A program made the translations under genes and the position numbers. DNA of 64,000 bases from positions 248,001 through 312,000 of the forward strand of contig NZ_CP094467.1 in assembly GCF_023347235.1 (NCBI RefSeq). Reading direction: 5' to 3'. The DNA is from Faecalibacterium sp. I4-1-79. Its GTDB lineage: Bacteria; Bacillota; Clostridia; Oscillospirales; Ruminococcaceae. Positions 625 through 27,778 of this stretch are shown one piece after another (the first letter of the stretch is position 1; each line of letters starts with the position of its first letter). The notes beneath the pieces were generated by a model, which did no database searches, was not told the origin of the DNA, and was given only the letters and a program-made list of their open reading frames with translations.

Positions 625-760
625 AAATGCCGTTTGCCATTACGACCCCACCCGTGAAAATGGGATAGCGGAGCGTCCGCAGACGCTCCGCTATCCCGAA
701 AATTAAAATAATTCTTCCGCTGAATATGCCCAAAGCGCAGCGGAGGGCATTTCAAATCGT
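625..760 (-). repeat. Family-I intergenic repeat, copy 1
   Basis: Inverted copy of the element also found near 2.0, 2.3, 4.8, 6.25, 8.05, 10.6 and 27.7 kb. The outer arms are an AAACGGCATTT-type arm on one side and GGAATGCGCTCCGC / ATATTCAGCGGAA on the other. The centre (662-697) is a 36-nt hairpin with a 16-bp stem GGGATAGCGGAGCGTC and a CGCA tetraloop. It lies between convergent genes, where it can act as a shared terminator. Its end overlaps the last codons of the GIY-YIG gene. Confidence 0.8.
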
Positions 761-1045
761 CTCCACCCCGGGACACCCGGCGGCGCGCCATGCGGCGCAC
801 AGCACCTCTTTTTCCGGCTTGGAGAGCTTTTTCAGGGCGGCTTCCCGGCGCAGGGCGGCGCGTTTGTCCGCGCAGCGCTCTAGATAGGCAAAGCCCACCG
901 CGCCGTGGGCGCGGGTGTAGCGGGCACCTTTGCCGCTCTGGTGCGCTTTCAGCCGGGCGGCGGGGTGGTTCGTCCAACCGGTGTACAGCTGCCCGCCGGT
1001 GCAGCGCACCATGTAGACGTAGGCGGCGTCAGGCAAGGCGTCCAT
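752..1045 (-). CDS. GIY-YIG family nuclease (UPF0213/YhbQ-like)
   Basis: 97 residues, the usual size of stand-alone YhbQ-like GIY-YIG proteins. The signature is at the N-terminus: YVYMVRC then LYTGWTN, followed by the conserved arginine helix AARLKAHQSGKGARYTR. The C-terminus (LKKLSKPEKEVL) is also typical. Family members are single-domain nucleases with suspected DNA-repair roles; the substrate is unknown. The start overlaps the end of the upstream MYG1-like gene by 17 bases, so the two are probably translated together. Confidence 0.85.
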   Translation of the reverse strand: MDALPDAAYVYMVRCTGGQLYTGWTNHPAARLKAHQSGKGARYTRAHGAVGFAYLERCADKRAALRREAALKKLSKPEKEVLCAAWRAAGCPGVETI

Positions 1046-1859
1046 TGTTTTTCAGCACCTGACGGCAGGCGGCAAGGGCGGTCTCCTTGTCCTTGGCGGT
1101 GATGAGAAAACGGCTGGCGTGGCAGAAGCTGATGCCCGGGATACCGCTCTTCTGCTCGATGACCTCCTGCGGCTGTCCCGCCCAAGACTGGGGGAAGGGC
1201 AGCTTGGACTTTTTGGTCTTGTGGTCGGTGACGCACTGGGCGCTCCACCCGCCGCGCTGGCTGGGGTACACCACAAACAGAGCGTCGGTCTTGTACAGGC
1301 CGTTTTTCCACGGCAGATAGCAGGGCAGCACCACGATGCCGTCGCGGGAGTTGCGGTAGGCCTGCTGTACTTTTTCGTCCGCGCGGTTCACGGCGTTGGC
1401 GCTGTCGATCTGGTTTTCCAAGATCTGCTTTGCCACAGCCACCGCCTTGAAAAAGCAGCTGTCCTGATCCTCCTTGGAGTCCCACACCGGATTGAAAAAG
1501 CCAATGGCATCGCACAGGCTGTTCTGCTCGCCGGTGTTGTCGTTCAGGTCCAGCGGCTGGATGAAGTTTTCGTCGATGAGCCGCGCCTGCCGCTCGCCCA
1601 CAAGGCCGGGCCCAAGCACCCGCCACAGCAGACCAAAGGCTGCGTAGGGCACGCCGTTTGCGCGGTACTCCCGGGGCTCCTGATGGTGGTCGAACATCCC
1701 AAAGCCGATATCGTACACGATGCCGTCAAAATCGTCAGGTACGGTAAAGCCGCGGGTGATCTTGATATCCGGGCGCAGAATTTGCAATAGCGCCGTAGCA
1801 AACACGTCATCGGCATGGAACTTGCCGGCGTGGGTAAAACCGTTTGCGGGAATTTTCAT
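1029..1859 (-). CDS. MYG1/UPF0160 family metal-dependent hydrolase
   Basis: 276 residues. The N-terminus carries the DHH-like metal motifs of the MYG1 family: THAGKFHADDVFATALL, then a DIGFGMFDHHQE segment. These give the histidine/aspartate cluster expected for an Mn-dependent phosphoesterase or exonuclease. Eukaryotic MYG1 is a 3'-5' RNA exonuclease; bacterial members are poorly studied. The rest (LPFPQSWAG, GISFCHASRFL) fits the conserved C-terminal half. It is the first gene of a two-gene minus-strand unit with the GIY-YIG nuclease, a pairing that suggests nucleic-acid metabolism. Confidence 0.85.
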   Translation of the reverse strand: MKIPANGFTHAGKFHADDVFATALLQILRPDIKITRGFTVPDDFDGIVYDIGFGMFDHHQEPREYRANGVPYAAFGLLWRVLGPGLVGERQARLIDENFIQPLDLNDNTGEQNSLCDAIGFFNPVWDSKEDQDSCFFKAVAVAKQILENQIDSANAVNRADEKVQQAYRNSRDGIVVLPCYLPWKNGLYKTDALFVVYPSQRGGWSAQCVTDHKTKKSKLPFPQSWAGQPQEVIEQKSGIPGISFCHASRFLITAKDKETALAACRQVLKNNGRLA

Positions 1860-1980
1860 GGATTTGATACCTCTTCTTTACTTTCAGATACACCTTAGTT
1901 TTGTCTGGTATCAGTATAGCACAATCCCGCCCGTGGGACAACAAAAAGGAACGGCAGCGCCGCCGTTCCTTTTGTGCGGG

Positions 1981-2230
1981 ACGATTTGGAATGCGCTCCG
2001 CGTCTTACGGGTTGCGGCACCCAGCATCCGCATCGTGCCTTGGGCGGCACTTGCGTCTTGCTGGCCGCTGCCCCAACAACTCCTCCCTGTTTCCGCCACT
2101 GGCGGCGGTCGTCGTCGTTGCTGCGCATCAATAGCGGAAGAATTATTTTTATTTCGGGATAGCGGAGCGTCTGCGGACGCTCCGCTATCCCATTTTCACG
2201 AGAGGGGACGCAGCGGAAAACTGCATTTAA
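1981..2230 (+). repeat. Family-I intergenic repeat, copy 2a (interrupted)
   Basis: The left arm ACGATTTGGAATGCGCTCCG begins at 1981. About 110 bases of unrelated sequence then separate it from the second arm part (AGCGGAAGAATTATTTTT, near 2133). The central 36-nt hairpin (2156-2191) has the same 16-bp stem as copy 1 and a TGCG tetraloop, followed by ATTTTCACGAGAGGGG. The insertion leaves the hairpin intact. With copy 2b it fills most of the 500-base gap between the MYG1 and phosphoribosyltransferase genes. Confidence 0.75.
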
Positions 2231-2240
2231 TATTCTTTCT

Positions 2241-2345
2241 CTGTGAAAAAGGGGTTCAGGAAAGTCCGCAGACTTTCCTGAACCCCGAAATTAAAAAGAT
2301 ATCTTCCTCTGAATATGCGCAGAGCAACGCGGAGCGCATTTTCAA
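2241..2345 (-). repeat. Family-I intergenic repeat, copy 2b
   Basis: Inverted copy next to copy 2a. The 36-nt hairpin (2251-2286) has stem GGGGTTCAGGAAAGTC with a CGCA loop, a different stem sequence from copy 1 but fully paired. It is followed by TCTGAATATGCGCAGAG and GCGGAGCGCATTTTCAAT, the reversed arm. It sits directly after the 3' end of the phosphoribosyltransferase-like gene. Confidence 0.75.
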
Positions 2346-2361
2346 TCATTTGGCATTTGCG

Positions 2362-2997
2362 TTACAGCGCCGAATAGCCGAAGCTGTTCACCAGCGCGTC
2401 AATGTGCTGCCCGGCCTTGCACAGGGGGCAGTCGCGGGAGTCGAAGCTGGCGTAATCCGGCAGACTGGTGGGGTCGAAGATGGAGGTGACCGGGTAGCCA
2501 AGGCACTCGTGGGTGGTGGCAAAAATCGCCGAAAGCCCTGCCACGATGCCGCCGTAGTAGTTTACGGCTTCTACGGCTGCCTGAATGGTGTAGCCGGTGG
2601 TGATGGATGCCGCCAGAATGAGGACGTGCTTGCCCTTGACCATGGGAGCAAGATTGTCCCGCAGAATGATCTGGCTGCCGGAGGTGTATTCCGGCGTGAC
2701 GATGTAGATGGTCTTGTGGGCGTTCATATTGGTAAAGCCGTCCTTGGTCAGCTCGTTGGCAAGGCAGGTGCCAATGACCTGTGTGCCGTCCAAGCAGAGC
2801 ACGGTATCCACGATGGTGCTGTGCTGGTAAGCGCTGACCAGCTCCTTTGCCACGGCCTTGGCCTCGGAAAGGCGGGTCTTTTGGGTGGTCACGTCGATGT
2901 AATAGTTGATGTGGCTGTGGCTGGTGGCAAAATGTCCCTTGGCCACCCGCAGGAACAGTTCGCTTTTGCTGGTGGGAAGCTTGACCATGTTGATCAT
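2362..2997 (-). CDS. Orotate phosphoribosyltransferase-like protein
   Basis: 211 residues with a type I phosphoribosyltransferase layout: an N-terminal hood, DTVLCLDGTQVIGTCLA, then a PRPP-loop equivalent. The loop reads VLILAASITTGYTIQAA. Active enzymes have acidic residues where this protein has AAS, so PRPP binding may be altered. The C-terminus has a CPLC motif (DCPLCKAGQ) that could hold a metal. AAGGAG lies 9 bases upstream of the first ATG. Similar proteins are annotated as orotate phosphoribosyltransferase in Clostridia, but no pyr gene is nearby. A regulatory or degenerate member is possible. Confidence 0.65.
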   Translation of the reverse strand: MINMVKLPTSKSELFLRVAKGHFATSHSHINYYIDVTTQKTRLSEAKAVAKELVSAYQHSTIVDTVLCLDGTQVIGTCLANELTKDGFTNMNAHKTIYIVTPEYTSGSQIILRDNLAPMVKGKHVLILAASITTGYTIQAAVEAVNYYGGIVAGLSAIFATTHECLGYPVTSIFDPTSLPDYASFDSRDCPLCKAGQHIDALVNSFGYSAL

Positions 2998-3379
2998 TGT
3001 ACAGCACTCCTTTTTTCACCGGGCGCAGCTGCGCCGCAAAATACAAAACAGCGCGGCGACCTATTTTGATCGCAGCGCTTATTTTTCTTCTCTGCTTCTT
3101 TATTGTACTGAAAAATGCCGCTGTGCACAAGACACAAACCTGACGAAAAACCTTGCTTTTTTACAGACATATCGCCGAAAACTTGGATGCAAAGGCCGCT
3201 GCCGCCCGGAATGCCGCACCGCAAAAGGGGCACAGCGGCAAGACCGGTACTGCGGCAGGGGAGGAACACACTTTTTTGCGCAACACGGAAAATTTTACAA
3301 AAAGGGACTGGTATTTTTGCGGGTTTTGAGTATAATATAAGAGATAGTTCAAATTTGAAGTAAAAGGAGAATCACTTCC
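2998..3379. other. Intergenic region between divergent genes
   Basis: 382 bases with no convincing gene. A TATAAT at 3331-3336, about 50 bases before the MATE start, is the likely -10 box; no good -35 is visible. AAGGAG for the MATE gene is at 3363-3368. The remainder is A-rich upstream sequence without recognisable repeats. Confidence 0.45.
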
Positions 3380-4747
3380 ATGGCACAGGCAAAACAGGAT
3401 ATGGGCTCTGGCAGCGTAAAAAAGCTGATGCTGCAGCTCATGATCCCGGCGGTCGTTGCACAGGTGGTCAACCTGCTGTATAACATCGTGGACCGCATTT
3501 ACATCGGACATATTGCCGGCATCGGCGCGGCAGCGCTGACCGGCGTGGGACTGTTCACCCCCATCCTTATGCTGCTGAACGCATTCGCCATGCTGGTGGG
3601 CGCGGGCGGCGCACCCCGCACCGCCATTGCGCTGGGGCAGGGCGACAAGGAGCAGGCAGAGAAGATCATCTCCAACAGCTTTACCATGCTGCTGCTCTTC
3701 TCGGTGGTGCTGACCGTGGTGTTCTACGCCGGAGCGCCCACCCTGCTGCGGCTCTTTGGTGCCAGTGACGCCACCCTGCCCTATGCGCTGGCGTACAGCC
3801 GCATCTACATTCTGGGCTCGGTGTTTGTGCTGCTGGTGCTGGGCATGAACCCCTTCATCACCACGCAGGGCTTTGCCAAGACCAGTATGCTTACCACCGT
3901 CATCGGTGCGGTCATCAACATTATTCTCGATCCCATCCTGATCTTTGGTCTGGGGCTGGGCGTGCGGGGCGCTGCCATTGCCACCGTGCTCAGTCAGGCT
4001 GTGGGCGCGGTGTGGATCCTGCACTTCCTCACCGGCAAAAAGACCATCCTGCGCCTGCGCAAGGACTGTATGCGCCCGGAAAAGAAGGTCATCCTGCCGG
4101 TGATGGCGCTGGGCATCTCCACCTTTGTGATGATGTCCACCGAAAGCCTGCTGTCCATCAGTTTCAGCTCCAGTCTGGCGCGGTACGGCGGCGACGTGGC
4201 TGTGGGTGCCATGACCGTCATCACCAGCGCTTCCCAGCTGTGCACCCTGCCCATTCAGGGCATCTGTCAGGGCGGTCAGCCGGTAATGAGCTTCAATTTC
4301 GGCGCGGGCAAAAAGCTCCGCGTCAAGGAGGCGTTCCGCTTCCAGCTGCTGCTGTGCGGCTGCTACACCTGCCTGTTCTGGCTGCTCATGATGCTGGCGC
4401 CGGGGGCTGTGGCGGGCATCTTCACCTCGGATACGGCGCTGATCGACTACACCACATGGTCCATGCGCATCTACATGGCAGGTATCTTTGCCATGGGCTT
4501 CCAGATCGCCTGCCAGCAGAGCTTTATGGCGCTGGGTCAGGCCAAGGTCAGCCTGCTTCTGGCCTGCCTGCGCAAGATCATTTTGCTGATCCCGCTCATC
4601 TTCATTCTGCCGCACCTGCTGCCGGACCCGGTGTTCGGCGTCTTTCTGGCAGAGCCGGTCAGCGATATTCTGGCCGCCACCATTACCACCATCACCTTCT
4701 TCTCCCGCTTCAACGGTATTCTGGAACGGGGCGCTGCAAAGGTATAA
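3380..4747 (+). CDS. MATE family efflux transporter
   Basis: 455 residues with about twelve hydrophobic segments. The N-terminus (KKLMLQLMIPAVVAQVVNLL, then NIVDRIYIGHIAG) is the classic MATE entry helix pair, and the repeat half (SLLSISFSSSLARYGG, GICQGGQPVMSFNFGA) is also typical. MATE proteins export cationic drugs or metabolites using Na+ or H+ gradients; the substrate cannot be told here. It is a single gene with its own ribosome site, ending at a convergent repeat. Confidence 0.9.
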   Translation: MAQAKQDMGSGSVKKLMLQLMIPAVVAQVVNLLYNIVDRIYIGHIAGIGAAALTGVGLFTPILMLLNAFAMLVGAGGAPRTAIALGQGDKEQAEKIISNSFTMLLLFSVVLTVVFYAGAPTLLRLFGASDATLPYALAYSRIYILGSVFVLLVLGMNPFITTQGFAKTSMLTTVIGAVINIILDPILIFGLGLGVRGAAIATVLSQAVGAVWILHFLTGKKTILRLRKDCMRPEKKVILPVMALGISTFVMMSTESLLSISFSSSLARYGGDVAVGAMTVITSASQLCTLPIQGICQGGQPVMSFNFGAGKKLRVKEAFRFQLLLCGCYTCLFWLLMMLAPGAVAGIFTSDTALIDYTTWSMRIYMAGIFAMGFQIACQQSFMALGQAKVSLLLACLRKIILLIPLIFILPHLLPDPVFGVFLAEPVSDILAATITTITFFSRFNGILERGAAKV

Positions 4748-4752
4748 CGCAT

Positions 4753-4890
4753 ACGATTGGAATGCGCTCCGCTGCGCTCTGCGCATAATCAGCGGAAAAA
4801 CTATTTTTAATAGAACAATGCCGGAGCGTCTGCGGACGCTCCGGCATTGTATTTTCACAGGAGGGGTCGTAATGACAAACGGCATTTGCG
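4753..4890 (+). repeat. Family-I intergenic repeat, copy 3
   Basis: Full-length copy between the convergent MATE and ATP-grasp genes. The arm ACGATTGGAATGCGCTCCGC is followed by ATAATCAGCGGAAAAACTA. The hairpin at 4815-4850 has a 16-bp stem ACAATGCCGGAGCGTC and a TGCG loop. Then come ATTTTCACAGGAGGGGTCGT and ATGACAAACGGCATTTGC. The position suits a bidirectional terminator. Confidence 0.85.
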
Positions 4891-4904
4891 CCGCGCACTC
4901 CCAA

Positions 4905-6188
4905 TTACTTTTCAGCTACTGCCGCCTCCGGCTCACCCAGAGCCAGCACCTTCGTCAGCTCGGCCTGCACCTTGGCGTTGGTGGCATCGGTGACGGCCAG
5001 CACATCGGAATAGAACTTTTCCATCTCGTCACGGGTGGAGAAGGTGGCCACATACATCTGGTTGCCCATGGCACCGGACAGTGCCTCGGGGATGCGGTCC
5101 ACCATGCGCATGTTGTCCTGATACTTCTGCATCAGCTGCTCGTGGCTGTAAACGAAGCTCTTGCCGTCCCGGCGGCCGGCAAAGGCGCAATAGTAGTGCT
5201 CCCCCACCGGCATATCGGTGCCGCCGAAGGCGATCATGTCCGCCCAGATCTTGTACACGTTGGTGGAGCGGGCAAAGTCGATCATGTCCGGGGTAAAGCC
5301 GCCGCAGGGGCGCATGTTGACCTCCAGCGCCACGAGCTGGCCTTTTTTGCCCATGCTGGCCTGATCCTCGGTCATGCGGAAGAACTCGAAGTGGACAAAG
5401 CGGCTCTTCACCCCAAAGCTCTTGACGGCGGCACGGCCTGCGGCGCGGGTGTCCTCCGGCAGATCCTTAATGATGTAGTAGATGGAGTTGTCATCGTTGT
5501 TCACGATGTCCATGATGGACACCGGGCTTACGTTGCCCGCCTCAAAGATGGGGTTGCCGTGGGCGTCGATGATGGCATCGTAGCTGTTCACCTCGGCGCG
5601 GACGAACTCCTCCATGATGTAGGCCACATCCGGGTGCTCTTTTTCCTTGTAGGCCAGAAATGCCTCCAGCTCCTTGTCGGTGGAAAGGCGGTGGGTATCC
5701 GAAGCACCCACGCCGTTGTCCGGCTTGACCACCACCGGGTAGCCCACCTGTTCCACAAAGGCCTTGCAGCCCGCAAGGTCGTCTACCATGTGGTAGCGGG
5801 CGGTGGCGATCCCGGCCTTCTGATAGTACTCCTTCATCTTGCTCTTGTACTTGATGCGGGGCATATCAGAGGTCTGGAAGCCGCTGGTAATGTGGAAATC
5901 GGTGCGCAGGGCGGCATCCCGCTCCAGCCAGTATTCATTGTTGGACTCCAGCCAGTCGATGCGGCCATACTTGAAGGTGAAAAAGGCCACGGCGCGGTAT
6001 ACCTCGTCGTAGTTTTCCAGACTGTTCACCTTGTAGTATTCGTTCAGGCTTGCCTTCAGTTCGGGCTTCAGCTCCTCGTAGGGCTGGTCGCCGATGCCCA
6101 GCACGTTCAGGCCGTTGTTTTTCAGCTCCCGGCAGAACTGCCAGTAGTTCGTGGGGAAGTTGGGGGAGATAAAAATAAAGTTCTGCAT
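4905..6188 (-). CDS. ATP-grasp domain carboxylate-amine ligase
   Basis: 427 residues. The ATP-grasp core is visible: YPVVVKPDNGVGASDTHR (lysine and glycine-rich loop, about residues 140-157), AYIMEEFVRAEVNSYDAIID, and the metal-binding LVALEVNMRPCGGFTPDMI. The N-terminal region (MQNFIFISPNFP) looks like the pre-ATP-grasp domain of CarB/PurK-type ligases. Enzymes of this type join a carboxylate to an amine or thiol through an acyl-phosphate; the substrates are unknown. It is the last of three minus-strand genes with two alpha/beta-hydrolase esterases, which suggests making and trimming of a small conjugate. The ribosome site (GAGGA) is weak and distant. Confidence 0.8.
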   Translation of the reverse strand: MQNFIFISPNFPTNYWQFCRELKNNGLNVLGIGDQPYEELKPELKASLNEYYKVNSLENYDEVYRAVAFFTFKYGRIDWLESNNEYWLERDAALRTDFHITSGFQTSDMPRIKYKSKMKEYYQKAGIATARYHMVDDLAGCKAFVEQVGYPVVVKPDNGVGASDTHRLSTDKELEAFLAYKEKEHPDVAYIMEEFVRAEVNSYDAIIDAHGNPIFEAGNVSPVSIMDIVNNDDNSIYYIIKDLPEDTRAAGRAAVKSFGVKSRFVHFEFFRMTEDQASMGKKGQLVALEVNMRPCGGFTPDMIDFARSTNVYKIWADMIAFGGTDMPVGEHYYCAFAGRRDGKSFVYSHEQLMQKYQDNMRMVDRIPEALSGAMGNQMYVATFSTRDEMEKFYSDVLAVTDATNAKVQAELTKVLALGEPEAAVAEK

Positions 6189-6221
6189 AGTATTTGTTGA
6201 TTCCTCTTTCCGTTACCTCTA

Positions 6222-6318
6222 TGATTGCAATGCCCCTGCGGGGCGGGACAGACTTTAATATTGGGAAACAACGGCGCGTCCATGGACGCGCCGTTGTTTC
6301 GTTTTCACGGGATGGGTC
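6222..6318 (+). repeat. Family-I intergenic repeat, diverged copy 4
   Basis: The 36-nt hairpin (6265-6300) has a perfect 16-bp stem GAAACAACGGCGCGTC and a CATG loop, followed by the family sequence GTTTTCACGGGATGGG. The left arm is degenerate. It sits between two minus-strand genes (esterase and ATP-grasp), downstream of the esterase 3' end. Confidence 0.6.
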
Positions 6319-7075
6319 ACTGCTGGCCCAGAATGTAGGGCATATAGTACGCCACCTGCTTATACCACCAGTTCCAGTCGTGGTTGACATCGTGACCCCA
6401 CAGGTCTACCCAGATGGGGATATGCTTTGCTTCAAAGATGCGCTTGAGCATCCATGTGGTGTCCGGCTGTTCCCAGTCGCCCTGACCGCAGCAGATGACA
6501 GCTTTCTGGCTGCGGAACAGCTGCATATAGGGGTGATCCTCCGGGAAGTTCTTCATGTAGTCCACGGGGGAGTTCATGTACACCAGCTCGTCCATATAGT
6601 CGCCAAAGCCGTAGTGGGCAGTGTAGATGCCGCTGAGTGCCAGACAGCCGCAGAAGATATCCGGGCGGCGCAGGTACAGGTTTACCGCATGGGTGGCGCC
6701 CAGACTGCACCCGAAGGCGATGATGCCGGGCAGGTCGCTCCAGCCGTTGCGCTGCTGCGCCAGATGCTGAAGCATCGGGGCGGCCTCGCGGGTGATGTAG
6801 TGCAGCCACTGCTCATAGCGGCGGATGCGCCAGTAGGGGTTGCCCTGCGCGTCCGACCATGTTTCCTGATCCATGGTGTCGATGGAAAGCACCATGATCT
6901 GCCCGGACTCGATCCACGGGGCAAGGGCGTCGGTCATGTGGAAGTTTTCAAAATCGAAAAAACGGCCGTCCTGACAGGGGATGTACAGCATCGGGCGGCC
7001 TGCGTGGCCGTAAAGCTTGCACTCCATATCCCGTCCCAGTTCCGGGCTGTACTCCTTGAAATACTGCATCTCCAT
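6317..7075 (-). CDS. Alpha/beta-hydrolase esterase (FrmB/esterase D-like)
   Basis: 252 residues. The nucleophile elbow is GCSLG within IIAFGCSLGATHAVNLYL, giving the catalytic serine; a C-terminal histidine is likely in LWGHDVNHDWNWW. The fold resembles the putative esterase family that includes S-formylglutathione hydrolase and antigen 85-like proteins. No signal peptide is present, so it should be cytoplasmic. AAGGAGG precedes the start. It lies 46 bases after a second, related esterase and before an ATP-grasp ligase, suggesting one pathway. Confidence 0.8.
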   Translation of the reverse strand: MEMQYFKEYSPELGRDMECKLYGHAGRPMLYIPCQDGRFFDFENFHMTDALAPWIESGQIMVLSIDTMDQETWSDAQGNPYWRIRRYEQWLHYITREAAPMLQHLAQQRNGWSDLPGIIAFGCSLGATHAVNLYLRRPDIFCGCLALSGIYTAHYGFGDYMDELVYMNSPVDYMKNFPEDHPYMQLFRSQKAVICCGQGDWEQPDTTWMLKRIFEAKHIPIWVDLWGHDVNHDWNWWYKQVAYYMPYILGQQ

Positions 7076-7121
7076 GGTGTTTCCTCCTTTAGTGTTGTTG
7101 GGCTATGGTGTCGCCCTTCTT

Positions 7122-7892
7122 TTATTCCTCCACCTCATACAGCAGGGTGTGGAACACGAAGGGCAGCTGTTTTTCCCAGCTGGCTTCGCTGTGGGTGCCG
7201 CCGGGCACGATGCGGCTGGTCAGGTGGATGCCCCGGGTCATCAGCTTGCCGCTCAAGGCAGAAAATTGTCGGCGGATGCCCTCGTGGTTGCCCATCTCCC
7301 GGGAGCCGTAGTCCATGTACAGCACCGTGCCGGGGGCAAGCTTTGCGCGCCCCACAAGGCCGGAAAGCTTATCCGGTGCCACCCAGATGGAGGGGGAAAG
7401 TGCTGCGGCGCGGCTGTAAGTATCGTTATATTGCAGCAGGGCATACAGGCTCATCAGTCCGCCCATGCTGCTGCCGCCGATAAAGGTATTTGCCCTGTCC
7501 GGCAGGGTGCGGAAATTTTGGTCGATCAAAGGCTTGAACCGGTGGATGAACCAGCTCATGGTGGCCTGTCCCTTGCCGTCAAAGTGGCCGTAGGTGGGGT
7601 CATCGAAGCGGTAGGGGGAATACTCCACCAGACGCTCGTTGTTCGCCCCGGCGTTGCACTCGATGGCCGCCACGATCAGCGGGGTGTCGGTATAGTCCAG
7701 ATAATCTGCCACGCCCCAGCTTTTGCCGTAGGTGGCATCCTCGTTGAAAAACACGTTCTGCCCATCGAACATATACAGCACGGGGAACCGGCGCTCCGGC
7801 TGTGCTTCGTACATGGTGGGCAGGTAGACATACGCCCGGCGCTGTTCGGTGCCGTTGACCGCCGGGTAACTCATGCTCCATTTTTTGATCAT
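7122..7892 (-). CDS. Alpha/beta-hydrolase esterase (enterochelin esterase-like)
   Basis: 256 residues. The elbow GGSSMGGLMSLYALL contains the catalytic serine; YLDYTDTPLIVAAIECNAG and the C-terminal GGTHSEASWEKQLPFVFH match the Fes/YieL branch, with the histidine in the second motif. There is no export signal. It leads the three-gene unit with the second esterase and the ATP-grasp ligase. The two esterases share a fold but not close sequence, so they are not a recent duplication. The substrate is unknown. Confidence 0.8.
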   Translation of the reverse strand: MIKKWSMSYPAVNGTEQRRAYVYLPTMYEAQPERRFPVLYMFDGQNVFFNEDATYGKSWGVADYLDYTDTPLIVAAIECNAGANNERLVEYSPYRFDDPTYGHFDGKGQATMSWFIHRFKPLIDQNFRTLPDRANTFIGGSSMGGLMSLYALLQYNDTYSRAAALSPSIWVAPDKLSGLVGRAKLAPGTVLYMDYGSREMGNHEGIRRQFSALSGKLMTRGIHLTSRIVPGGTHSEASWEKQLPFVFHTLLYEVEE

Positions 7893-8012
7893 GGTGCTTC
7901 TTTCCTCTCAAATCTTCCTGCAAAGGGCACAGGCGGCAAGCCCACGCCCTTTATAGGTAGTGTAGCACCATGCGGCGGGAATTGCAATCTTTATGCGCAA
8001 AGGGGCGGCGGG

Positions 8013-8151
8013 ACGATTTGGAATGGCTTCCGCTTGCGCTCTAGCCATATTCAGCGGAAATATTATTTATAATTTCGCAATTCTGGAAAATCTGCGGATT
8101 TTCCAGAATTGCCTTTTCACGGGAGGAGCTGTGACGGCAAACGGCATCTGC
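8013..8151 (+). repeat. Family-I intergenic repeat, copy 5
   Basis: Copy upstream of the esterase unit and downstream of ilvE. Left arm ACGATTTGGAATGGCTTCCG; hairpin 8077-8112 with stem GCAATTCTGGAAAATC and TGCG loop; right arm TTTTCACGGGAGGAGC followed by GGCAAACGGCATCTGC. The stem is A/T-rich and unlike other copies, yet all 16 pairs are kept. Confidence 0.85.
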
Positions 8152-8160
8152 GGTGATGCA

Positions 8161-8199
8161 AAAGGGACTGCTGCCCCAAATGGTATGCAGCAGTCCCTT
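8161..8199 (-). terminator. Terminator after ilvE
   Basis: AAGGGACTGCTG and CAGCAGTCCCTT form a perfect 12-bp stem 25 bases past the ilvE stop, with A-rich sequence on the plus strand giving a U run for minus-strand transcripts. Confidence 0.7.
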
Positions 8200-8224
8200 A
8201 AAAAGCCGTAGGGTGACAGGCGGC

Positions 8225-9304
8225 TCAATATTTCTTTTCCACAGGCACGATCCAGCCCTTGGTGTCGGGCAGCTTGCCCCACTGCATACCGGTCATGGTG
8301 TCGTACAGCTTCTGGGTGACAGGGCCGATCTTGCCGTCGCCGATGAAAGCGTGCTCGCCCTTCCAGACCAGCTCCTTGACAGGGGAGACGACAGCGGCAG
8401 TACCGGTGCCGAACACCTCTTCCAGCTTGCCTTCGCGGGCAGCAGCCATGATGTCGGCAATGGCGATCTTGCCCTCAACGACCTCGTAGCCCCAGTCCTT
8501 CAGCAGCTCAATGCAGCTGCGGCGGGTGACGCCGGGCAGCACGGTGCCCACGGTAGCAGCGGTGTAAACCTTGCCGTCGATCTTGAACATGATGTTCATG
8601 CTGCCAACTTCTTCAACGTACTTCTTCTCCACGCCGTCCAGCCACAGCACCTGTGCGTAGCCCTGCTCCTCGGCCAGCTCGCCGGCCTTGATGGAAGCAG
8701 CGTAGTTGCCGCCGCACTTGGTAAAGCCGGTCAGACCCGGGGCGGCGCGGATATACTCATCTTCCACATAGATGCGCACGGGGTTGATGCCCTCGGCGTA
8801 GTAAGCGCCGGAGGGAGCGCAGATGATGCAGAAAATATAGTGCTTGGAGGCGTGCACGCCCAGACCCACATCATTGGCAAAGATGAAGGGACGGATGTAC
8901 AGGGAAGCGCCGTCGGTGTGGGGCACCCAGTCGCGGTCCACATCCACCAGAGCCTCAACGGCCTGAATGTAGTCCTCTACCGGGATCTTGGGGATGCACA
9001 GACGGTCGGCAGAATCCTGAAAGCGCTTGGCGTTGCAGTCCGGGCGGAACAGCTGCACGGTGTCATCGGCGGTGCGGTAGGCCTTCATGCCCTCAAAGAT
9101 CTCCTGTGCGTAGTGGAACACCACGGTAGCGGGGTCCAGCTCAAAGGGGCCGTAGGGGACGATGCGGGCATCGTGCCATCCCTCACCCTCGGTGTAATCC
9201 ATGACGAACATGTGGTCGGAGAACTTTTTGCCGAAGCCGAGCTTCGTCTCATCGGTGGGCTTTGCCTTGGGCGTAGCCGTGCGGGTGATCTTGATATCCA
9301 ACAT
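8225..9304 (-). CDS. ilvE: Branched-chain amino acid aminotransferase
   Basis: 359 residues, the normal size for the long bacterial/eukaryotic BCAT type. The PLP lysine is in GFTKCGGNYAAS, followed by QVLWLDGVEKKYVEEVGSMN, the fold-type IV signature. FHYAQEIFEGMKAYR near residue 75 is the conserved substrate region. It transfers the amino group between Leu/Ile/Val and 2-oxoglutarate in the cytoplasm. It stands alone, with its own terminator; no ilv neighbours are in view. Confidence 0.95.
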   Translation of the reverse strand: MLDIKITRTATPKAKPTDETKLGFGKKFSDHMFVMDYTEGEGWHDARIVPYGPFELDPATVVFHYAQEIFEGMKAYRTADDTVQLFRPDCNAKRFQDSADRLCIPKIPVEDYIQAVEALVDVDRDWVPHTDGASLYIRPFIFANDVGLGVHASKHYIFCIICAPSGAYYAEGINPVRIYVEDEYIRAAPGLTGFTKCGGNYAASIKAGELAEEQGYAQVLWLDGVEKKYVEEVGSMNIMFKIDGKVYTAATVGTVLPGVTRRSCIELLKDWGYEVVEGKIAIADIMAAAREGKLEEVFGTGTAAVVSPVKELVWKGEHAFIGDGKIGPVTQKLYDTMTGMQWGKLPDTKGWIVPVEKKY

Positions 9305-9556
9305 AGTGAGTTTCCCTCTTTCCTTTTATGCGCGTGCGCACGATTTCCGGCGCTTTATGACACAAATGTTGGTTTCTATTATAATATTCCCAGCCGGTTT
9401 TGCAAGGAATCGCAAAATGTTTCATCTTTCCACCGGTAAAGTTGCACCAGATTGTGAGCACAATGGTGTGCAAACTGCCAAATCTATGGTACAATAGGGG
9501 CACAGAGCACTTTTGCGGAGCACAGCCCCGCTTTTCTATGGAAGGAGCATACTGCC

Positions 9557-10210
9557 ATGATCGACAGCGTTATTTTTGATATGGACGGCCTGATGTTTGA
9601 CACCGAGCGGGTCTGGGCTACCCTGTGGGAGCCTGCACTTGCCACCCTTGGGCTTTCTTATAAGGAAGGGCTGGACGTTGCCGCCCGCGGCACGGCAGGG
9701 GACACCATGCGGGCGGTGCTGCGCCGCTTCTACGGGGAAAACTGCGACACGGACGCCATCATCGAGGCGCTGCACGCACAGGCGGAAAAGGCGTTTCAGG
9801 CACCGCCGCCCAAAAAGCCCGGACTGGACGAAATTCTGACATGGCTGGACGCACAGCACATCCCCATGGCAGTGGCTTCCTCCAGCCGGATGGCGTCTAT
9901 CCGGCACCATTTGGACGGCTGGGGTCTGACCCACTATTTTAAGGTGATCGTCTCCGGCGAGCAGTTCTCAGCCTCCAAGCCCGACCCGGAAATTTTTCTG
10001 CGCGCAGCGGAAGCGCTGGGCACTGCGCCCAGCCGCACCCTTGTGCTGGAGGACAGTTACAACGGCGTGCGCGCCGGTGCCGCCGGCGGCTTTGTTACCG
10101 TGATGGTGCCGGACATGGCCCCCGCCGATGACGAGATGCGCCGCCTGTACACCGCCGAGTGCCGCGATCTGTACGAGGTGCTGGAAGGCTTGCAGAAGGG
10201 GAGATTCTGA
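9557..10210 (+). CDS. HAD family phosphatase/phosphoglucomutase-like
   Basis: 217 residues. Motif I is VIFDMDGLMFDTERV (nucleophile and acid/base aspartates near residues 8 and 10), motif II AVASSSR, motif III the lysine in KPDPEIFL, motif IV LEDSYNGVRAG. The helical cap after motif I places it with beta-phosphoglucomutase or phosphatase subfamily I. The substrate cannot be assigned. A GGAAGGAG site is 8 bases before the ATG. Confidence 0.85.
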   Translation: MIDSVIFDMDGLMFDTERVWATLWEPALATLGLSYKEGLDVAARGTAGDTMRAVLRRFYGENCDTDAIIEALHAQAEKAFQAPPPKKPGLDEILTWLDAQHIPMAVASSSRMASIRHHLDGWGLTHYFKVIVSGEQFSASKPDPEIFLRAAEALGTAPSRTLVLEDSYNGVRAGAAGGFVTVMVPDMAPADDEMRRLYTAECRDLYEVLEGLQKGRF

Positions 10211-10212
10211 GT

Positions 10213-10256
10213 GAGGGATGTTCTCTTTTGACACCAAAAGAGAACCAGAAAAGTGC
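10213..10256 (+). repeat. 44-bp inverted repeat, left arm
   Basis: The sequence from GAGGGATGTTCTC to CCAGAAAAGTGC occurs inverted at 13160-13203. It contains its own perfect hairpin (GTTCTCTTTT / AAAAGAGAAC). The two arms flank the 5'-nucleotidase gene. It begins 3 bases after the HAD stop codon. Confidence 0.85.
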
Positions 10257-10492
10257 GTGCTCCGTGGGGAAAGTTTCTGCTTGCCTTCAGCGTGCAGGGA
10301 CGCTCCGCTGGGCCAGAGGTAGGGAGGGGTGTTCCGATTCCCCCCTCCCTACCTCTGGACTCCACCCACCCCGCAACGGGTCAAGGGCTGCACGCCCTTG
10401 ACAAACCTAAAGAAGAAGTCGAAGCACAAAAAAGCTAGCGCTGCGCCAGTCGGCGCTATCGCTTTAACGCTTTTTTCGCTTCTCCATTTATA

Positions 10493-10530
10493 GCCCCTCA
10501 GTCGCTGCGCGACAGCTCCCCCCGGGGAGC
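10493..10530 (+). repeat. CCCTCAGTC-type module, inverted relative to 12971-13010
   Basis: GCCCCTCAGTCGCTGCGCGA then CAGCTCCCCCCGGGGAGC. The same sequence, inverted with few changes, is at 12971-13010, so the order of repeats is mirrored around the 5'-nucleotidase gene. Confidence 0.75.
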
Positions 10531-10533
10531 GTT

Positions 10534-10648
10534 CCCACCCGTGAAAATGCAATGCCGGAGCGTCCGCAGACGCTCCGGCATTGCTCTATTAAAAATAATT
10601 TTTCCGCTGAATATGCGTAAAGCGAACGCGGAGCGCATTCAAATCGTC
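10534..10648 (-). repeat. Family-I intergenic repeat, copy 6
   Basis: Inverted copy. Hairpin 10549-10584, stem GCAATGCCGGAGCGTC with CGCA loop, followed by TTTTTCCGCTGAATATGCG and GCGGAGCGCATTCAAATCGT. It lies just after the end of the 5'-nucleotidase gene, which converges with the HAD gene. Confidence 0.85.
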
Positions 10649-10652
10649 GGGT

Positions 10653-12608
10653 TTAGCCCTGCGTTTTTCTTTTGCGGCGGAGCTTGCGCACCAGCTTACG
10701 GAGCAGCAGCACAAGGCACACCACCAGCAGAATTACGGTGAGGATCAGACCGAGAAGGATAAAGGCAAAGCGGTTGGGCTTTTTCAGCAGCGCGGAAAGG
10801 CTGCGGCTGTCCTCCACCTTTTTGCGGTCGTGCAGGGTGCTGTAATAGTCCGGCACGTTGCCGATGCCGTCGCCGTCGGTGTCCTCGAACGAGGTCATGT
10901 ACCGCGCAATGGCGTCCCAGCCTTTCAGCTCTTTGCCGTTTTCGGTCAGGATCACATCCTCAAAATCTTCGATGGGAGTGCCGTCGGCGTATTTCGGCAC
11001 GATGGACAAAATGCCGTAGGACATATCGGTCACGGCGCTCAGCATCTGCCCGCTGTAAAGGTCTGCCACAATGCGGTACAGCTTGTCGTCCTGCAGCTCT
11101 ACGCGCTGCCCGTCCTTGACCAGATAAACATCTGTCACCTTGTTCAGCAGCAGCCGGTGGGGGTTATAGGTAAAATTCAGGCCGCTGCAATATAGCCGCG
11201 CGGTGGTCATGAAATCCGACACGGAAGCGTCGATCTCGGCGGCGGTGCGCAGTTCCTTGCCGGTGAGGTAGACCTCAATGAGGGGATAGCCCGGCACACC
11301 GTCTGCGCCGATGCCCAGCGAGAAGGAGTTGAACACCTGCTCCACCGTGATATCGCCCCGGGCGTAGGTATCGCGCACGGTGCCGCTGGGCACTACCGCC
11401 AAGTCGACCGGAACGCCGTCATAGTCGGCGGCGTTCTCCACCGCGTACACATAGGCGTCCGCGATGATATCACCCAGATTGTGCTCGGTGTGCACCTTGC
11501 CCAGATCTTTCAGGTTAGAAAAAACAACGTCGTTTTCTGCCAGAACCTGATCCTTAGTGTAGCCGAACTGCGCCAGATAATCCGCGTCCACGGTGTCCAT
11601 AAAGCGGTCGATGACCTCTTGCGTGTCGGCATCGGCAGGGATGTCGGCAGTAATGGGAATCAGCTGGTAATCAGTCACCTGCCAGCGGCCATCCGCTTTC
11701 TGTGCCATGGAAAGGCTGCCCAGATTTTTGCCGTACTCGCCGCAGGACACCACATAGGTGTCCCCGTGGCGGATGGGCTCCCGGATGCGGCTGTGGGTGT
11801 GGCCGCTGAGGATAAGGTCGAGCTCAGGCACACCTTTAGCCAGCAGCTCGTCCTCAGACTTTTTGGGATTGTCCCATGTGCCGCTGTGGGAAACGCAGAC
11901 GATCATATCCGCATTTTCGTTTTCCTTGATCTCTGCCACGGTGGCTTTGACCGCTTGTATCGGGTCTTTGAATTTCAGTTCACAGGTGGGCGCGCAGGAG
12001 AGCGCATCCTTGCCGAAAACGCCCACCACAGCAATGCGCACATTGCCCTTCTGCACCACGGTGTAGTCCTGCACGCCGTAGGCGGCAAAGGCGTCCCGGA
12101 GCTCTTGTTGTCCCTCGGTGAGGCCGGCGGCTTCCATGGCGTCCCAGTCCACATTGCAGACCACGATGTCCGGGACGGCATCGCCGGAGGTGCGGGCGCT
12201 GGTAAGCATATTGGCAAGCCCCTTGGAGCGGTAGTCGAACTCGTGGTTGCCAAAGGTGGTCACATCGTAGCCCATGTAGCCCAGCATCCGCAGCTCTGCG
12301 GCCTGTGTTTCAAACACGGTCTGGATCAGGGTGCCCATGGAAAAGTCACCGCCGTCGATCACAAGGGTGTCCGGGTCTTTGGCGCGCTGCGCCTTGATGA
12401 GGGTGTTGGCGCGGGCAAAGCCGCCAATCTCTGCTTCCTCGTCCTCCACCACGGTGGTGAAGGTGTTCAGGTGGGAGTGGGTGTCGTGGCTGAACAGGAT
12501 GTCCAGCGTTTTGCCCGTCTCCGGTGCCTGCCCATAGGCGGCGGGAATGCCCAGCAGCACTGAAAACAGCAGCAGCACGGCCACCGTCATGGCAAAAAGT
12601 TTTTTCAT
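10653..12608 (-). CDS. Surface bifunctional metallophosphatase/5'-nucleotidase
   Basis: 651 residues. A Sec signal peptide (MKKLFAMTVAVLLLFSVLLG) is followed by the calcineurin-like domain: ILFSHDTHSHL, IDGGDFSMGT, TFGNHEFDY, VCVSHSGTW and LSGHTHSR give the two-metal site. The second half (from about residue 370) is the 5'-nucleotidase C-terminal substrate domain. DTDGDGIGNVPDYYS near residue 580 resembles a calcium-binding loop. A C-terminal membrane helix (FAFILLGLILTVILLVVCLV) with a basic tail anchors it, rather than an LPXTG signal. It probably salvages extracellular nucleotides. Confidence 0.9.
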   Translation of the reverse strand: MKKLFAMTVAVLLLFSVLLGIPAAYGQAPETGKTLDILFSHDTHSHLNTFTTVVEDEEAEIGGFARANTLIKAQRAKDPDTLVIDGGDFSMGTLIQTVFETQAAELRMLGYMGYDVTTFGNHEFDYRSKGLANMLTSARTSGDAVPDIVVCNVDWDAMEAAGLTEGQQELRDAFAAYGVQDYTVVQKGNVRIAVVGVFGKDALSCAPTCELKFKDPIQAVKATVAEIKENENADMIVCVSHSGTWDNPKKSEDELLAKGVPELDLILSGHTHSRIREPIRHGDTYVVSCGEYGKNLGSLSMAQKADGRWQVTDYQLIPITADIPADADTQEVIDRFMDTVDADYLAQFGYTKDQVLAENDVVFSNLKDLGKVHTEHNLGDIIADAYVYAVENAADYDGVPVDLAVVPSGTVRDTYARGDITVEQVFNSFSLGIGADGVPGYPLIEVYLTGKELRTAAEIDASVSDFMTTARLYCSGLNFTYNPHRLLLNKVTDVYLVKDGQRVELQDDKLYRIVADLYSGQMLSAVTDMSYGILSIVPKYADGTPIEDFEDVILTENGKELKGWDAIARYMTSFEDTDGDGIGNVPDYYSTLHDRKKVEDSRSLSALLKKPNRFAFILLGLILTVILLVVCLVLLLRKLVRKLRRKRKTQG

Positions 12609-13159: not shown

Positions 13160-13203
13160 GCACTTTTCTGGTTCTCTTTTGGTGTCAAAAGAGAACATCC
13201 CTC
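13160..13203 (-). repeat. 44-bp inverted repeat, right arm
   Basis: Reverse complement of 10213-10256 over the whole 44 bases as read by eye. With the CCCTCAGTC modules it forms a mirrored pair around the 5'-nucleotidase gene. Confidence 0.85.
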
Positions 13204-21956: not shown

Positions 21957-21972
21957 GTTTTGTAAAAAAGTG

Positions 21973-22001
21973 ATGCCGGGCAGCCGCAGGCTGCCCGGCA
22001 T
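21973..22001. terminator. Terminator after nagA
   Basis: ATGCCGGGCAGCC / GGCTGCCCGGCAT perfect 13-bp stem 17 bases past the stop, preceded by AAAAAAG. Confidence 0.7.
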
Positions 22002-22029
22002 TACGCTGTAAAAATATATTTTCCGCAAA

Positions 22030-22063
22030 AAAGAGGCCGCTGCGCGATTGCAGCGGCCTCTTT
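22030..22063. terminator. Terminator after EIIA gene
   Basis: AAAGAGGCCGCTG / CAGCGGCCTCTTT perfect stem, 14 bases from the end of the EIIA gene on the minus strand. A and T runs flank both sides, so it may act in both directions. Confidence 0.7.
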
Positions 22064-23562: not shown

Positions 23563-23592
23563 ACGGACACACCTCCTTTCCTGCCGGGGCGC

Positions 23593-23778: not shown

Positions 23779-23889
23779 GATAGACCCTCCTGTTGCAGAT
23801 TACATGAACGAAAACGAAATGAGCCGGAACCTGCCCGGGAAGCCGCGCTCTGGCAGCTCCCGTGGGGGTGGCTCCCTTGACTGTGGCTT

Positions 23890-23972
23890 TATTATACAGC
23901 AGCCTAAATGGAATTCCTAGGTGACAAAAAACTTTATTTTTTGTTCCAATTCCGGTAGAAATATGCTATAAT
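23890..23972. promoter_or_regulatory. Divergent promoter region with dyad operator
   Basis: A minus-strand -10 (TATAAT, reverse of 23890-23895) and a plus-strand -10 (TGCTATAAT ending 23972) face apart. Between them is a dyad: GGAATT (23910-23915) with AATTCC (23948-23953), and inner arms GACAAAAAA / TTTTTTGTTC (23923-23946). This is a likely binding site for the WYL regulator encoded to the right. The -35 boxes are not clear. Confidence 0.5.
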
Positions 23973-24033
23973 CGCCTTATAAAAGTACCGGTACGGAACG
24001 AATGCCTGTTTTTTGAGCCTGCGGAGGTGCAAG

Positions 24034-25134: not shown

Positions 25135-25309
25135 AAAGCCGCAAAATCCTTTCCCGCGCGGGCGCTAATTTTCACTTTACAAACGCCGCAAGAACCGTTA
25201 CAATTACAATCAAAGCAATGCCGAAAGGCCGTTCGTTTTCATCCACCGTGCGCAACCGTTCCGACAGCGCCGGGGCTGCGCAGAACACTCTTGTCAGGAG
25301 GTTTTTTGC

Positions 25310-26533: not shown

Positions 26534-26545
26534 GGGGAGAAGCCC

Positions 26546-27625
26546 ATGAAACGCAAATGGAGCCTGCGCCTTGGTGCAGCCGTGCTGTGCGCGGTGCTGC
26601 TGGGCAGCTGCGGGAGCACCGCCGCTGCGCCCGCAGAAAGCACCGCCCCGGCAGACCCGCTTACCGGACAGCAGCTGCTGTACCCGGAACAGCGGGCGGC
26701 GGCGGTGGTCATTGAGAACACCACCGGCAGCACTACCCAGTGGGGCATCGGCAGCGCCTCGGTGGTGCTGGAAGCCCTGACCGAGAGCGGCAGCTCCACC
26801 GAGCTGTGTCTGGTATACCCCGCCCTTGAGGCCATGCCCATCGTAGGGCCGGTGACGCGCGGGCAGGACTTATACTGGCGGCTGCTCAGCGGGCAGCAGG
26901 TGCTGCCCATCCAGTGCGGCAGCAGTGCGTATGCCAAGCGGTATCTGGAATACTATAACCTCCGCGCGGTGGACGCGCAGGAGGTGGGGCGCAATGCCTT
27001 TGTCAGCACCGGTTATGGCTGGAACAGTACGCCTTTGTGGCGCACCAGCGGCAAGGCGGTCGCCTCGGTGCTGGACAGCCTGAGCATCTCCACTGCCGTG
27101 AACCAGAACACCGCCTCCGGCAGCGAGAGCGAAACGGCGGGCGTGCTGCCTGCCCTGCTGCCCCAGCGGGACACCGGCCATCTGCCGGACGCAACCGCTG
27201 CAGATGCGGTAAAGGTGACCGTAAATTTCCAATCTGGCGGTGCCACCGGCTTTGTCTATGATGACGCCCTTGCCGCCTACGGGATGCAACACGCTGACGG
27301 CACCCCCCAGCTGGACGCCAACACCGGCACACAGGCAGCCTTTGACAACCTGCTCATCCTGTACAGCGGCTCTTCCCTGCGGGACGACGGCCACACGCTG
27401 GACTACGACCTTTCCATGGGCGGCGGCGTCTGGCTGAACGGCGGACACCTGTGGCAGGTCACATGGACGCAGGGCGTAGAGAGTACCCTTGCCCTCTACG
27501 ATTCCAACGGCAAGCCGCTGGAGCTCCCGGCAGGGCGCAGTTACATTGCCCTGCTCTCCAGCCTTACCGGGCAGGAACTGCTGGTGCAAAACAGCACCGG
27601 GGAGGCGCTGGTGGGCGCCGGTTGA
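26546..27625 (+). CDS. DUF3048-like lipoprotein, diverged partner
   Basis: 359 residues. Signal MKRKWSLRLGAAVLCAVLLG with lipobox LGSC. The mature part has DPLTGQQLLYPEQRAAAVVI, VVLEALTESGSSTELCLVYP and MPIVGPVTRGQDLYWRLL, parallel to motifs of the upstream gene but strongly diverged and with a Ser/Thr-rich insert. It is probably cotranscribed and may pair with the first protein at the membrane. The function is unknown. Confidence 0.75.
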   Translation: MKRKWSLRLGAAVLCAVLLGSCGSTAAAPAESTAPADPLTGQQLLYPEQRAAAVVIENTTGSTTQWGIGSASVVLEALTESGSSTELCLVYPALEAMPIVGPVTRGQDLYWRLLSGQQVLPIQCGSSAYAKRYLEYYNLRAVDAQEVGRNAFVSTGYGWNSTPLWRTSGKAVASVLDSLSISTAVNQNTASGSESETAGVLPALLPQRDTGHLPDATAADAVKVTVNFQSGGATGFVYDDALAAYGMQHADGTPQLDANTGTQAAFDNLLILYSGSSLRDDGHTLDYDLSMGGGVWLNGGHLWQVTWTQGVESTLALYDSNGKPLELPAGRSYIALLSSLTGQELLVQNSTGEALVGAG

Positions 27626-27639
27626 TCTCCGGCAACGGG

Positions 27640-27778
27640 ACGATTTTGAATGCGCTCCGCGTTGCTTTGCGCATATTCAGCGGAAAATTTATTATTATAA
27701 TTTGCGGCTCAGAAACGTCTGCGGACGTTTCTGAGCCGCTTTTTCACGGGAGGAGGCATAGCGGTAAACGGCATTTGC
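27640..27778 (+). repeat. Family-I intergenic repeat, copy 7
   Basis: Full copy between convergent genes. Left arm ACGATTTTGAATGCGCTCCG, CATATTCAGCGGAAAATTTA; hairpin 27704-27739 with stem GCGGCTCAGAAACGTC and TGCG loop; right arm TTTTTCACGGGAGGAGGCAT and GTAAACGGCATTTGC. Confidence 0.9.

Follow-up and report, generated by a model that had tools for sequence, protein, structure and literature searches.

The window analysed here, 64,000 nt of DNA from Faecalibacterium sp. I4-1-79, contains members of a repeat family of about 140 nt, each built around a hairpin of 36 nt (Table 1). An intact copy has a 16-bp stem and a TGCG loop, flanked by conserved arms. A preliminary description had listed eight hairpins, all of which were found at their positions, each with a stem of 16–17 bp and a 4-nt loop. 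Seven of them were recovered by a sequence-only model (R1), which did not report the copy at 6265 and added one weak copy at 21960–22033 that is absent from the earlier list. The arms described as shared are indeed present in the family, but are incomplete in the copies at 6265, 2156, 2251 and 10549. In the split element a foreign insert of ~115–120 nt (~2002 to ~2117) separates the 5′ box from the core, and this element forms a tail-to-tail pair with its neighbour at 2239–2347.

Table 1. Copies of the hairpin repeat within the window
Feature	Position	Strand	Hairpin	Remarks
Intact element	625..760	-	662-697, stem GGGATAGCGGAGCGTC	TGCG loop on element strand; R1 E=1.2e-33
Split element	1988..2228	+	2156-2191	5′ box 1988-2001; core 2121-2228
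Element without far 3′ arm	2239..2347	-	2251-2286, GGGGTTCAGGAAAGTC	
Intact element	4753..4887	+	4815-4850, ACAATGCCGGAGCGTC	
Remnant	6264..6318	+	6264-6301	Loop CATG; 3′ box TTTTCACGGGATGGGTC; 5′ arm lost; missed by R1
Intact element	8013..8149	+	8077-8112, GCAATTCTGGAAAATC	
Element without far 3′ arm	10529..10647	-	10549-10584, GCAATGCCGGAGCGTC	
Degenerate copy	21960..22033	-	near 21970-22004	R1 E=1.5e-5
Intact element	27640..27776	+	27704-27739, GCGGCTCAGAAACGTC	

From the 297 copies of genomes G000 and G078, 244 were kept as arm-anchored, while the rest lacked the anchors or had too few paired positions. In this set, which admits only copies paired at most positions, 162 of the 244 stems were perfect and 139 distinct stem sequences occurred, the commonest being GCAATTCTGGAAAATC with 18 copies. 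Between the conserved arms, the stem can have almost any sequence provided that its halves are complementary. Read in the orientation of the arms, the loop was TGCG in 217 of the 244 copies and CGCA in two; the alternation between TGCG and CGCA in the preliminary description is a strand effect. Among the G000 copies listed, the hairpin is typically preceded by AATTTC, AATAGA or ATTT, with N-TTTTCAC downstream. A second short stem within the 5′ arm, ATGNNN/NNNCAT, also covaries and is Watson-Crick in 598 of 624 variable pairs (208 copies). A pseudoknot TCCGC/GCGGA in the same arm was rejected, its columns being conserved and departures from them uncompensated. The pattern CATATTCAGCGGAA, with up to two mismatches allowed, occurred 115 times in the genome compared to six times for the reversed pattern, which excludes chance for the repeat family.

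A model search, again relying on the DNA letters only, gave at least 149 copies in the 3.23 Mb Faecalibacterium genome. Among 31 genomes of this genus eight were copy-rich, with at least 75–107 copies each among the matches listed. There were 93 copies in G089 and 152 in G078; of the latter, 150 were available as listed matches, 148 of them within the stretches analysed. In a recA tree of 28 of the 31 genomes the copy-rich ones cluster in one clade; the family has expanded within one section of Faecalibacterium. None of 60 genomes belonging to other genera in the same bacterial family gave a match under stricter filters by which weak matches are lost, and a plasmid search gave no match to the repeat. 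A phage search returned seven unannotated records of 4–8 kb from human faeces with unknown host, three of which cover at least 80% of the query. In these searches the repeat family is thus restricted to Faecalibacterium, barring the short human-gut phage records. No paper describing it was recognised in the full-text literature, a scope outside which subscription journals and preprints fall.

That the fold is under constraint, as proposed previously, was supported: pairing is kept over the 139 distinct stems, and the arms change together in place. For 21 copies the covariation score was 0.698, compared to a shuffled mean of 0.217, a value that none of 500 shuffles reached; in slid controls it stayed at or below 0.136, and this set contained no one-sided standard change. 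One of five covariation measures, a count of additional pair types, was not above the shuffles (30 vs 29.3 in the 21 copies). Whether the fold acts as RNA or as DNA had been left open. At stem positions 2–16 of 223 copies (the 244 minus 21 of a mismatched class), 54 of 3345 pairs were non-Watson-Crick, namely 16 G-U, 23 A-C and 15 others, whereas ordinary terminators of the same stretches had 115 of 1200 (58 G-U, 24 A-C, 33 others) and a perfect stem in 13 of 82 cases. The G-U to A-C comparison gave a Fisher p = 0.0026, and p = 0.016 in a strict four-genome set (43 G-U, 40 A-C; 284 of 457 candidates kept after an arm filter), p-values that, like the others given here, are indicative, since neither copies nor orthologues are independent of each other. 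G-U is thus not preferred to A-C in the element, in contrast to ordinary terminators, and these pair statistics point to DNA rather than RNA as the pairing level.

Several observations count against a DNA-level reading. Looser anchors, which admit all 457 candidates, many of them spurious, gave 212 G-U and 172 A-C pairs, and departures per stem climb with arm divergence from 0.06 to 0.41–0.47, although stems flanked by the most diverged arms remain largely paired (on average 0.41 departures per 15 pairs). C(TGCG)G is a UNCG-type RNA tetraloop, a loop closing that hints at strand-specific use. Transcription of both strands would moreover weaken the G-U argument against RNA. In 26 of the 284 copies the stem is chimeric and has two mismatches side by side, hence imperfect hairpins spread too.

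Comparison of G000 with G078 yielded 63 distinct orthologous pairs, of which 41 were kept, 7 were replaced in register and 15 were out of register; six further rows without a readable hairpin were left out. The 41 conserved sites showed 15 single changes (6 G-U, 6 A-C, 3 other) and eight double changes, seven of these from Watson-Crick to Watson-Crick and one starting from a mismatch. Divergence per nucleotide at these sites was 2.4% in the stem, 5.5–6.3% in the arms and 4.0–4.6% in the flanks. Four of the eight double-changed sites have mostly gapped 5′ arms; at 2896649, 1838559, 1506076, 1478913 and 2830827, neither stem occurs again in exact form in the G000 and G078 stretches. An arm-identity-filtered set of 54 pairs from four genomes contained eight single and seven double changes, one of each counted twice as one genome recurs. 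Ordinary terminators showed 2 double and 11 single changes in 234 pairs, a ratio that does not differ significantly from that of the element (p = 0.27), therefore paired in-place change is not proved to be specific to the element. Double changes are also fewer than symmetric correction of ~5% divergence predicts, which calls for selection or a bias in correction in addition.

In a few places a different hairpin has taken over as a whole, with one or both arms retained. One site has three different stems across four species next to the same private 5′ arm, and at one G069/G074 site the hairpin differs while both arms are common; an arm identity of ≥0.94 was reached in 5 of 4000 random non-orthologous pairs. 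In 13 of 20 replaced-stem sites neither arm was more alike than in random copies, which means that much of the turnover concerns whole elements or stems from mispairing by the script. At one further site the stem is identical and the arms are 99% identical, with the loop CGCA in place of TGCG, which is what spacer inversion would give. However, free intermolecular switching would be expected to give more inverted loops than the 3 among 284 copies, which counts against the template-switching account.

We tentatively suggest, at somewhat less than even confidence, that the element is a dispersed, non-autonomous REP/REPIN-like palindromic repeat, the hairpin of which would be kept self-complementary at the DNA level. 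Pairing would be upheld probably via template switching from arm to arm; less often, a hairpin may be swapped for that of another copy by non-allelic conversion. The arms probably served a putative mobilising enzyme. Template switching at short inverted repeats is reported to homogenise the arms and to invert spacers, which resembles the element, but that study concerns isolated events in yeast genes rather than the maintenance of a family of repeats (PMC8604942).

A possible but less likely alternative is mobilisation by a nuclease or transposase that recognises hairpins and moves a copy only if its hairpin is perfect in single-stranded DNA, irrespective of sequence, so that compensatory change accumulates in active lineages, as described in REPINs. 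Constant length, free sequence and common compensatory change are REPIN traits (PMC3116915), and the copies are dispersed, intergenic and paired tail-to-tail. Close inverted pairs are nearly always in this arrangement: a stricter hairpin scan of four genomes found 31 tail-to-tail, two head-to-head (both in G069) and two same-direction pairs. An origin of such pairs as a by-product of convergent genes was considered; they also lie in co-directional and divergent gaps. At three sites one species carries a pair that the other lacks in its entirety. Yet most sites are occupied in both species (among solo sites, 68 of 87 mapped from G000 and 67 of 76 from G078 have one copy in the other species), hence movement looks slow, and immobile copies should decay one-sidedly while double changes are seen in place. 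Empty sites are few and show no constant target-site duplication; one composite insert has a 10-bp direct repeat and the others no obvious one, which bears on a MITE-like nature. Matches to Y1 transposases are commoner in copy-rich genomes (6/8 vs 5/23 others, p = 0.012, without lineage correction), but the search gave none in the copy-rich G078 and G089. The formerly proposed spread by a REP-type transposase is so far not supported, and a different mobilising enzyme may be at work. Classification was carried out in G000 only, where two of three Y1 genes were assigned and both are IS200/IS605 transposases; in the search for a REP-associated enzyme they scored 32.5 and 33.3 bits, under the REP-transposase cut-off of 80.

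Selection on an RNA hairpin acting as terminator, 3′-end stabiliser or structured UTR element, indifferent to the stem sequence, appears unlikely, although the double changes in ordinary terminators speak slightly in its favour. The RNA fold is very stable (between −25 and −35 kcal/mol in four hairpins of the window), the TGCG loop is strand-constant and closed by C-G, and four or five T follow the stem on its 3′ side. Convergent gaps are in excess, with 121 of 290 classed copies compared to 130 of 532 background gaps. It had been stated that all copies are located downstream of at least one gene end; this is true in the window, but in the two genomes 17 of the 290 classed copies lie between divergent genes. 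The terminator role deduced from it was not supported. In co-directional gaps 74 copies are sense and 78 antisense to the genes (40 vs 39 in G000, 34 vs 39 in G078), and a terminator scan of window positions 1–11000 was passed by one of seven element hairpins. Intrinsic (Rho-independent) terminators likewise combine a stable hairpin, a short T run and proximity to gene ends, but the element, with its short T run, differs by lacking an orientation bias and the G-U excess present in terminators of the same DNA. Searched with Rfam 15 at gathering score, the whole window gave only pemK and tRNA, both elsewhere than the elements; up to E = 1, window positions 400–11000 gave ten matches, all below gathering.

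It is rather improbable that the repeat constitutes a cassette system. In such a system the conserved arms would cause the hairpin to be replaced or rewritten in place time after time, through breakage of the hairpin or switching of replication forks at the element, and the locus would cycle through unrelated, almost always perfect palindromes; if true, DNA would here be diversified in a way that keeps structure and discards sequence. That unrelated intrinsic terminators are alike by chance is refuted by the arm statistics: other long hairpins do occur in intergenic DNA of the window and its relatives, but the arms recur in at least 149 copies, the pattern count far exceeds that of the reversed pattern, and the copies cluster in one clade.

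The preferred reading, a REP/REPIN-like repeat kept paired at the DNA level, can be set against known families. REPINs are paired REP sequences forming hairpins in Pseudomonas fluorescens SBW25 and resemble the element as dispersed extragenic palindromes in inverted pairs with conserved ends, in which spacer length and hairpin capacity matter and compensatory changes are common (PMC3116915). The constant-length hairpin spacer with compensatory change is found here as well. A REPIN is bounded by two REPs in inverted orientation, and 61% of REPs occur in doublets (PMC3116915), whereas in the element neither arm is an inverted copy of the other, the hairpin has 16 bp with a fixed loop, and 62 of the 297 copies form close inverted pairs, so inverted doublets do not predominate. 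In contrast to the REPIN/RAYT arrangement, no REP-type transposase was found to accompany all copy-rich genomes. The GTAG and CGTC REP superfamilies are short palindromes of high copy number that form dimers, like the element, but their stems are 5–13 bp long and bear GTAG or CGTC at the foot; a transposase of their own likewise seems to be missing in the CGTC families (PMC3733652). The element differs by its 16-bp stem, the absence of either foot tag and its long conserved arms. In being a high-copy palindrome within the 20–40 nt range of REPs that is mostly extragenic, it agrees with them, as none of the 297 copies was within a gene according to our own gene-calling script.

Compensatory base change is widely read as a sign of functional RNA structure. 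Here, strong covariation is accompanied by little RNA-type pairing, with G-U not preferred to A-C, and copies in co-directional gaps favour neither strand. If arm copying at the DNA level is true, covariation alone would not be evidence of RNA function. The family would then offer hundreds of natural replicates, with orthologues of varied age, in a gut commensal, which would allow palindrome correction and hairpin exchange to be measured.

The eight hairpins listed in the preliminary description were confirmed in the window sequence. Seven of them belong to a common element of ~140 nt, and the remaining one is a remnant without 5′ arm (see table); some other window copies are truncated or interrupted. 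The element runs in the order ACGATTT..AATGNNNTCCGC..GCTYTNNNCAT..TCAGCGGAA, an A/T-rich stretch, the 36-nt hairpin and N-TTTTCACGGGAGGGGTCGTAA..AAACGGCATTT. Inserts comparable to the one interrupting a 5′ arm in the window were found in copies L020, L025 and L032. In several copies an insert with the common end ..TGGCGGCGGTCGTCGTCGTTGC (or a close variant) breaks the 5′ arm at roughly one position, so the element may be its target. A second repeat, GCAGCGCCGCTTTCTGCGAAAGCGCGGCGCTGCGG, often adjoins the 3′ end of the element, e.g. in copies L009, L010 and L029, while a third, AACGAACTCCCTCAGTCAAAACCTGACGG, occupies its 3′ side in other copies.

Coordinates of copies, neighboring repeats and sites of paired change
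Feature	Position	Strand	Remarks
Element copy adjoined by GCAGCGCCGCTTTCTGCGAAAGCGCGGCGCTGCGG	window 625-760		
Insert in 5′ arm	window ~2002-2117		
Element remnant	window 6265		lacks 5′ arm
44-nt inverted pair	window 10213-10256 and 13160-13203		100% complementary; each half holds a hairpin (GTTCTCTTTTG..CAAAAGAGAAC); also present in two composite inserts elsewhere in the genome, close to their far ends
pemK RNA motif (RF02913)	window 35311-35375	minus	60.2 bits
Composite insert with one element (L097)	source genome, G000:C1 36237 region		~500 nt; flanked by 10-bp direct repeat GCCCACAATA; matching site empty in G078
Double-change sites	2904022, 1848902, 1506076, 1478913		5′ arms only partly alignable (4 of 8 sites)
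Sites with neighboring base pairs changed together	1288524, 1229057		

Self-complementarity of the stem is conserved, its sequence is not, and wobble pairs are not favored. Stems were read with the arms as anchor, scoring G-U and A-C alike so that neither was favored, and 244 of 297 copies were readable. These comprise 139 different stems, with all four Watson-Crick pairs represented at most positions, and 162 are perfect over 16 bp, in agreement with the earlier claim that pairing is kept despite changing sequence. In a set of 21 copies, four of the five covariation measures lay far above both controls, and one-sided standard changes were absent. With the mismatched class set aside, 3345 pairs (positions 2–16, 223 copies) contained 16 G-U, 23 A-C and 15 other departures. 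As a control, 82 hairpins with a T tract behind them (13 perfect; 1200 pairs) were taken from the same stretches outside the elements; they contained 58 G-U, 24 A-C and 33 other departures. The G-U to A-C ratios differ (p = 0.0026; p = 0.016 in the four-genome set). If a fold is read as RNA, G-U should be better tolerated than A-C; this holds for ordinary terminators, whereas it does not for the element stems. Departures increase with arm divergence from 0.06 to 0.41–0.47 per 15 pairs, still a low value. A class with two adjacent mismatches, 26 of 284 copies in the four-genome set, resembles a chimera made from two hairpins; since this class is itself repeated, a perfect stem is not an absolute need.

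Most mapped sites are common to the source genome (G000) and G078, another Faecalibacterium genome: 87 solo sites of the former correspond to one copy in 68 cases, two in 7 and none in 12. At 41 conserved sites (656 base pairs), divergence between both genomes amounts to 2.4% of bases in stems, 5.5–6.3% in arms and 4.0–4.6% in flanks. At fixed sites, both stem arms change together. The stems of these 41 sites hold 15 single changes (6 G-U, 6 A-C, 3 other) next to 8 double changes, of which 7 replace one Watson-Crick pair by another. When a four-genome set was restricted by arm identity, its 54 pairs showed 8 single changes and 7 double ones, with one of each kind entering the count twice. Ordinary terminators with an alignable ortholog (17, comprising 234 pairs) had 11 single (6 G-U, 2 A-C, 3 other) and 2 double changes; their single-to-double ratio and that of the elements did not differ significantly (p = 0.27), so paired change is not demonstrably special to the element. 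Copying from another element cannot explain all double changes: for 5 of the 8 sites, no further exact copy of either stem exists in the fetched stretches, and the remaining three have at least one stem or half-stem that recurs there.

Whole hairpins are sometimes exchanged. Of 63 orthologous pairs, 20 have stems with four or more differing positions on both sides. For 13 of the 20, similarity in either arm does not exceed that between random copies, which means turnover of the whole element or a mispaired site; the other 7 retain at least one arm. In one of the clearest cases, ~1 kb from recA, four species have a private 5′ arm in common and carry three different stems, the 3′ side being altered as well in two of them. 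In another, genomes G069 and G074 carry different hairpins between two shared arms that include an unusual 5′ stem. One additional site has the same stem and 99% identical arms, but an inverted loop in G074.

Template switching is described in PMC8604942 as homogenizing short inverted repeats and inverting their spacers. Acting between the arms, it would keep the hairpin paired at the DNA level, probably joined by sporadic exchange between non-allelic copies and by a degree of purifying selection. Selection on an RNA hairpin is possible if both strands are transcribed. Its best argument is the strand-constant TGCG loop, a UNCG-type tetraloop; the lack of preference for G-U is not what an RNA-read fold should give.

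None of the 297 copies lies inside a gene as called by us in the fetched stretches. Apart from 7 at stretch edges, 121 lie in convergent, 17 in divergent and 152 in co-directional gaps; the corresponding background, counted over gaps ≥120 nt of these stretches, is 130, 117 and 285. Co-directional copies show no orientation preference (74 with, 78 against the genes). Among copies found by R1, a search model trained on 17 copies, all 31 cases of close neighbors in opposite orientation (11 in G000, 20 in G078) are arranged tail-to-tail; four genomes scanned more strictly for hairpins gave 31 tail-to-tail versus 2 head-to-head pairs. Gene direction does not explain this arrangement, as none of the three gap types lacks such pairs. 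Identical stems within one tail-to-tail pair were not observed (0 of 31; 0.44 expected). Twenty pairs were mappable (7 from G000, 13 from G078): the other species has a pair opposite 10 of them (5 sites, each seen from both sides), one copy opposite 7 and none opposite 3.

REPINs, the nearest precedent, keep spacer length and hairpin capacity, with compensatory changes being common, as stated in PMC3116915. We file the element with REP/REPIN-like palindromic repeats and not as REP, because the REP tag was absent when tested and inverted doublets were not the predominant unit, as they are in REPINs; no name for the family was found in searches of open-access literature. As to an association with RAYT and a mobilizing enzyme, which may act on the element, Y1 transposase matches occurred in 6 of 8 copy-rich versus 5 of 23 other genomes, with zero in two copy-rich ones, and the classified Y1 genes of the source genome are IS200/IS605, not REP-type.

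R1 uses sequence alone, hence pairing could not bias the copy search. It found at least 149 copies (150 candidates scored) in the single 3,227,950-base contig of the source genome, of which the window covers bases 248001-312000, and G078 searched alone gave 152. Among 31 Faecalibacterium genomes, eight had from at least 75 to at least 107 copies, two had 3, one had 1 and 20 had zero. A search with stricter filters gave no match in 60 genomes from 60 other genera of the family, and an exact-pattern scan of a named genome collection for the 5′ box returned 24 stretches, all labeled Faecalibacterium. A midpoint-rooted recA tree covering 28 genomes places all eight copy-rich and all three low-copy genomes inside one supported group of 14 (96/97); the copy-rich label requires 2 changes versus a shuffled mean of 7.1, with none of 500 shuffles as low. 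From this we infer an expansion limited to one clade, followed by mostly vertical inheritance.
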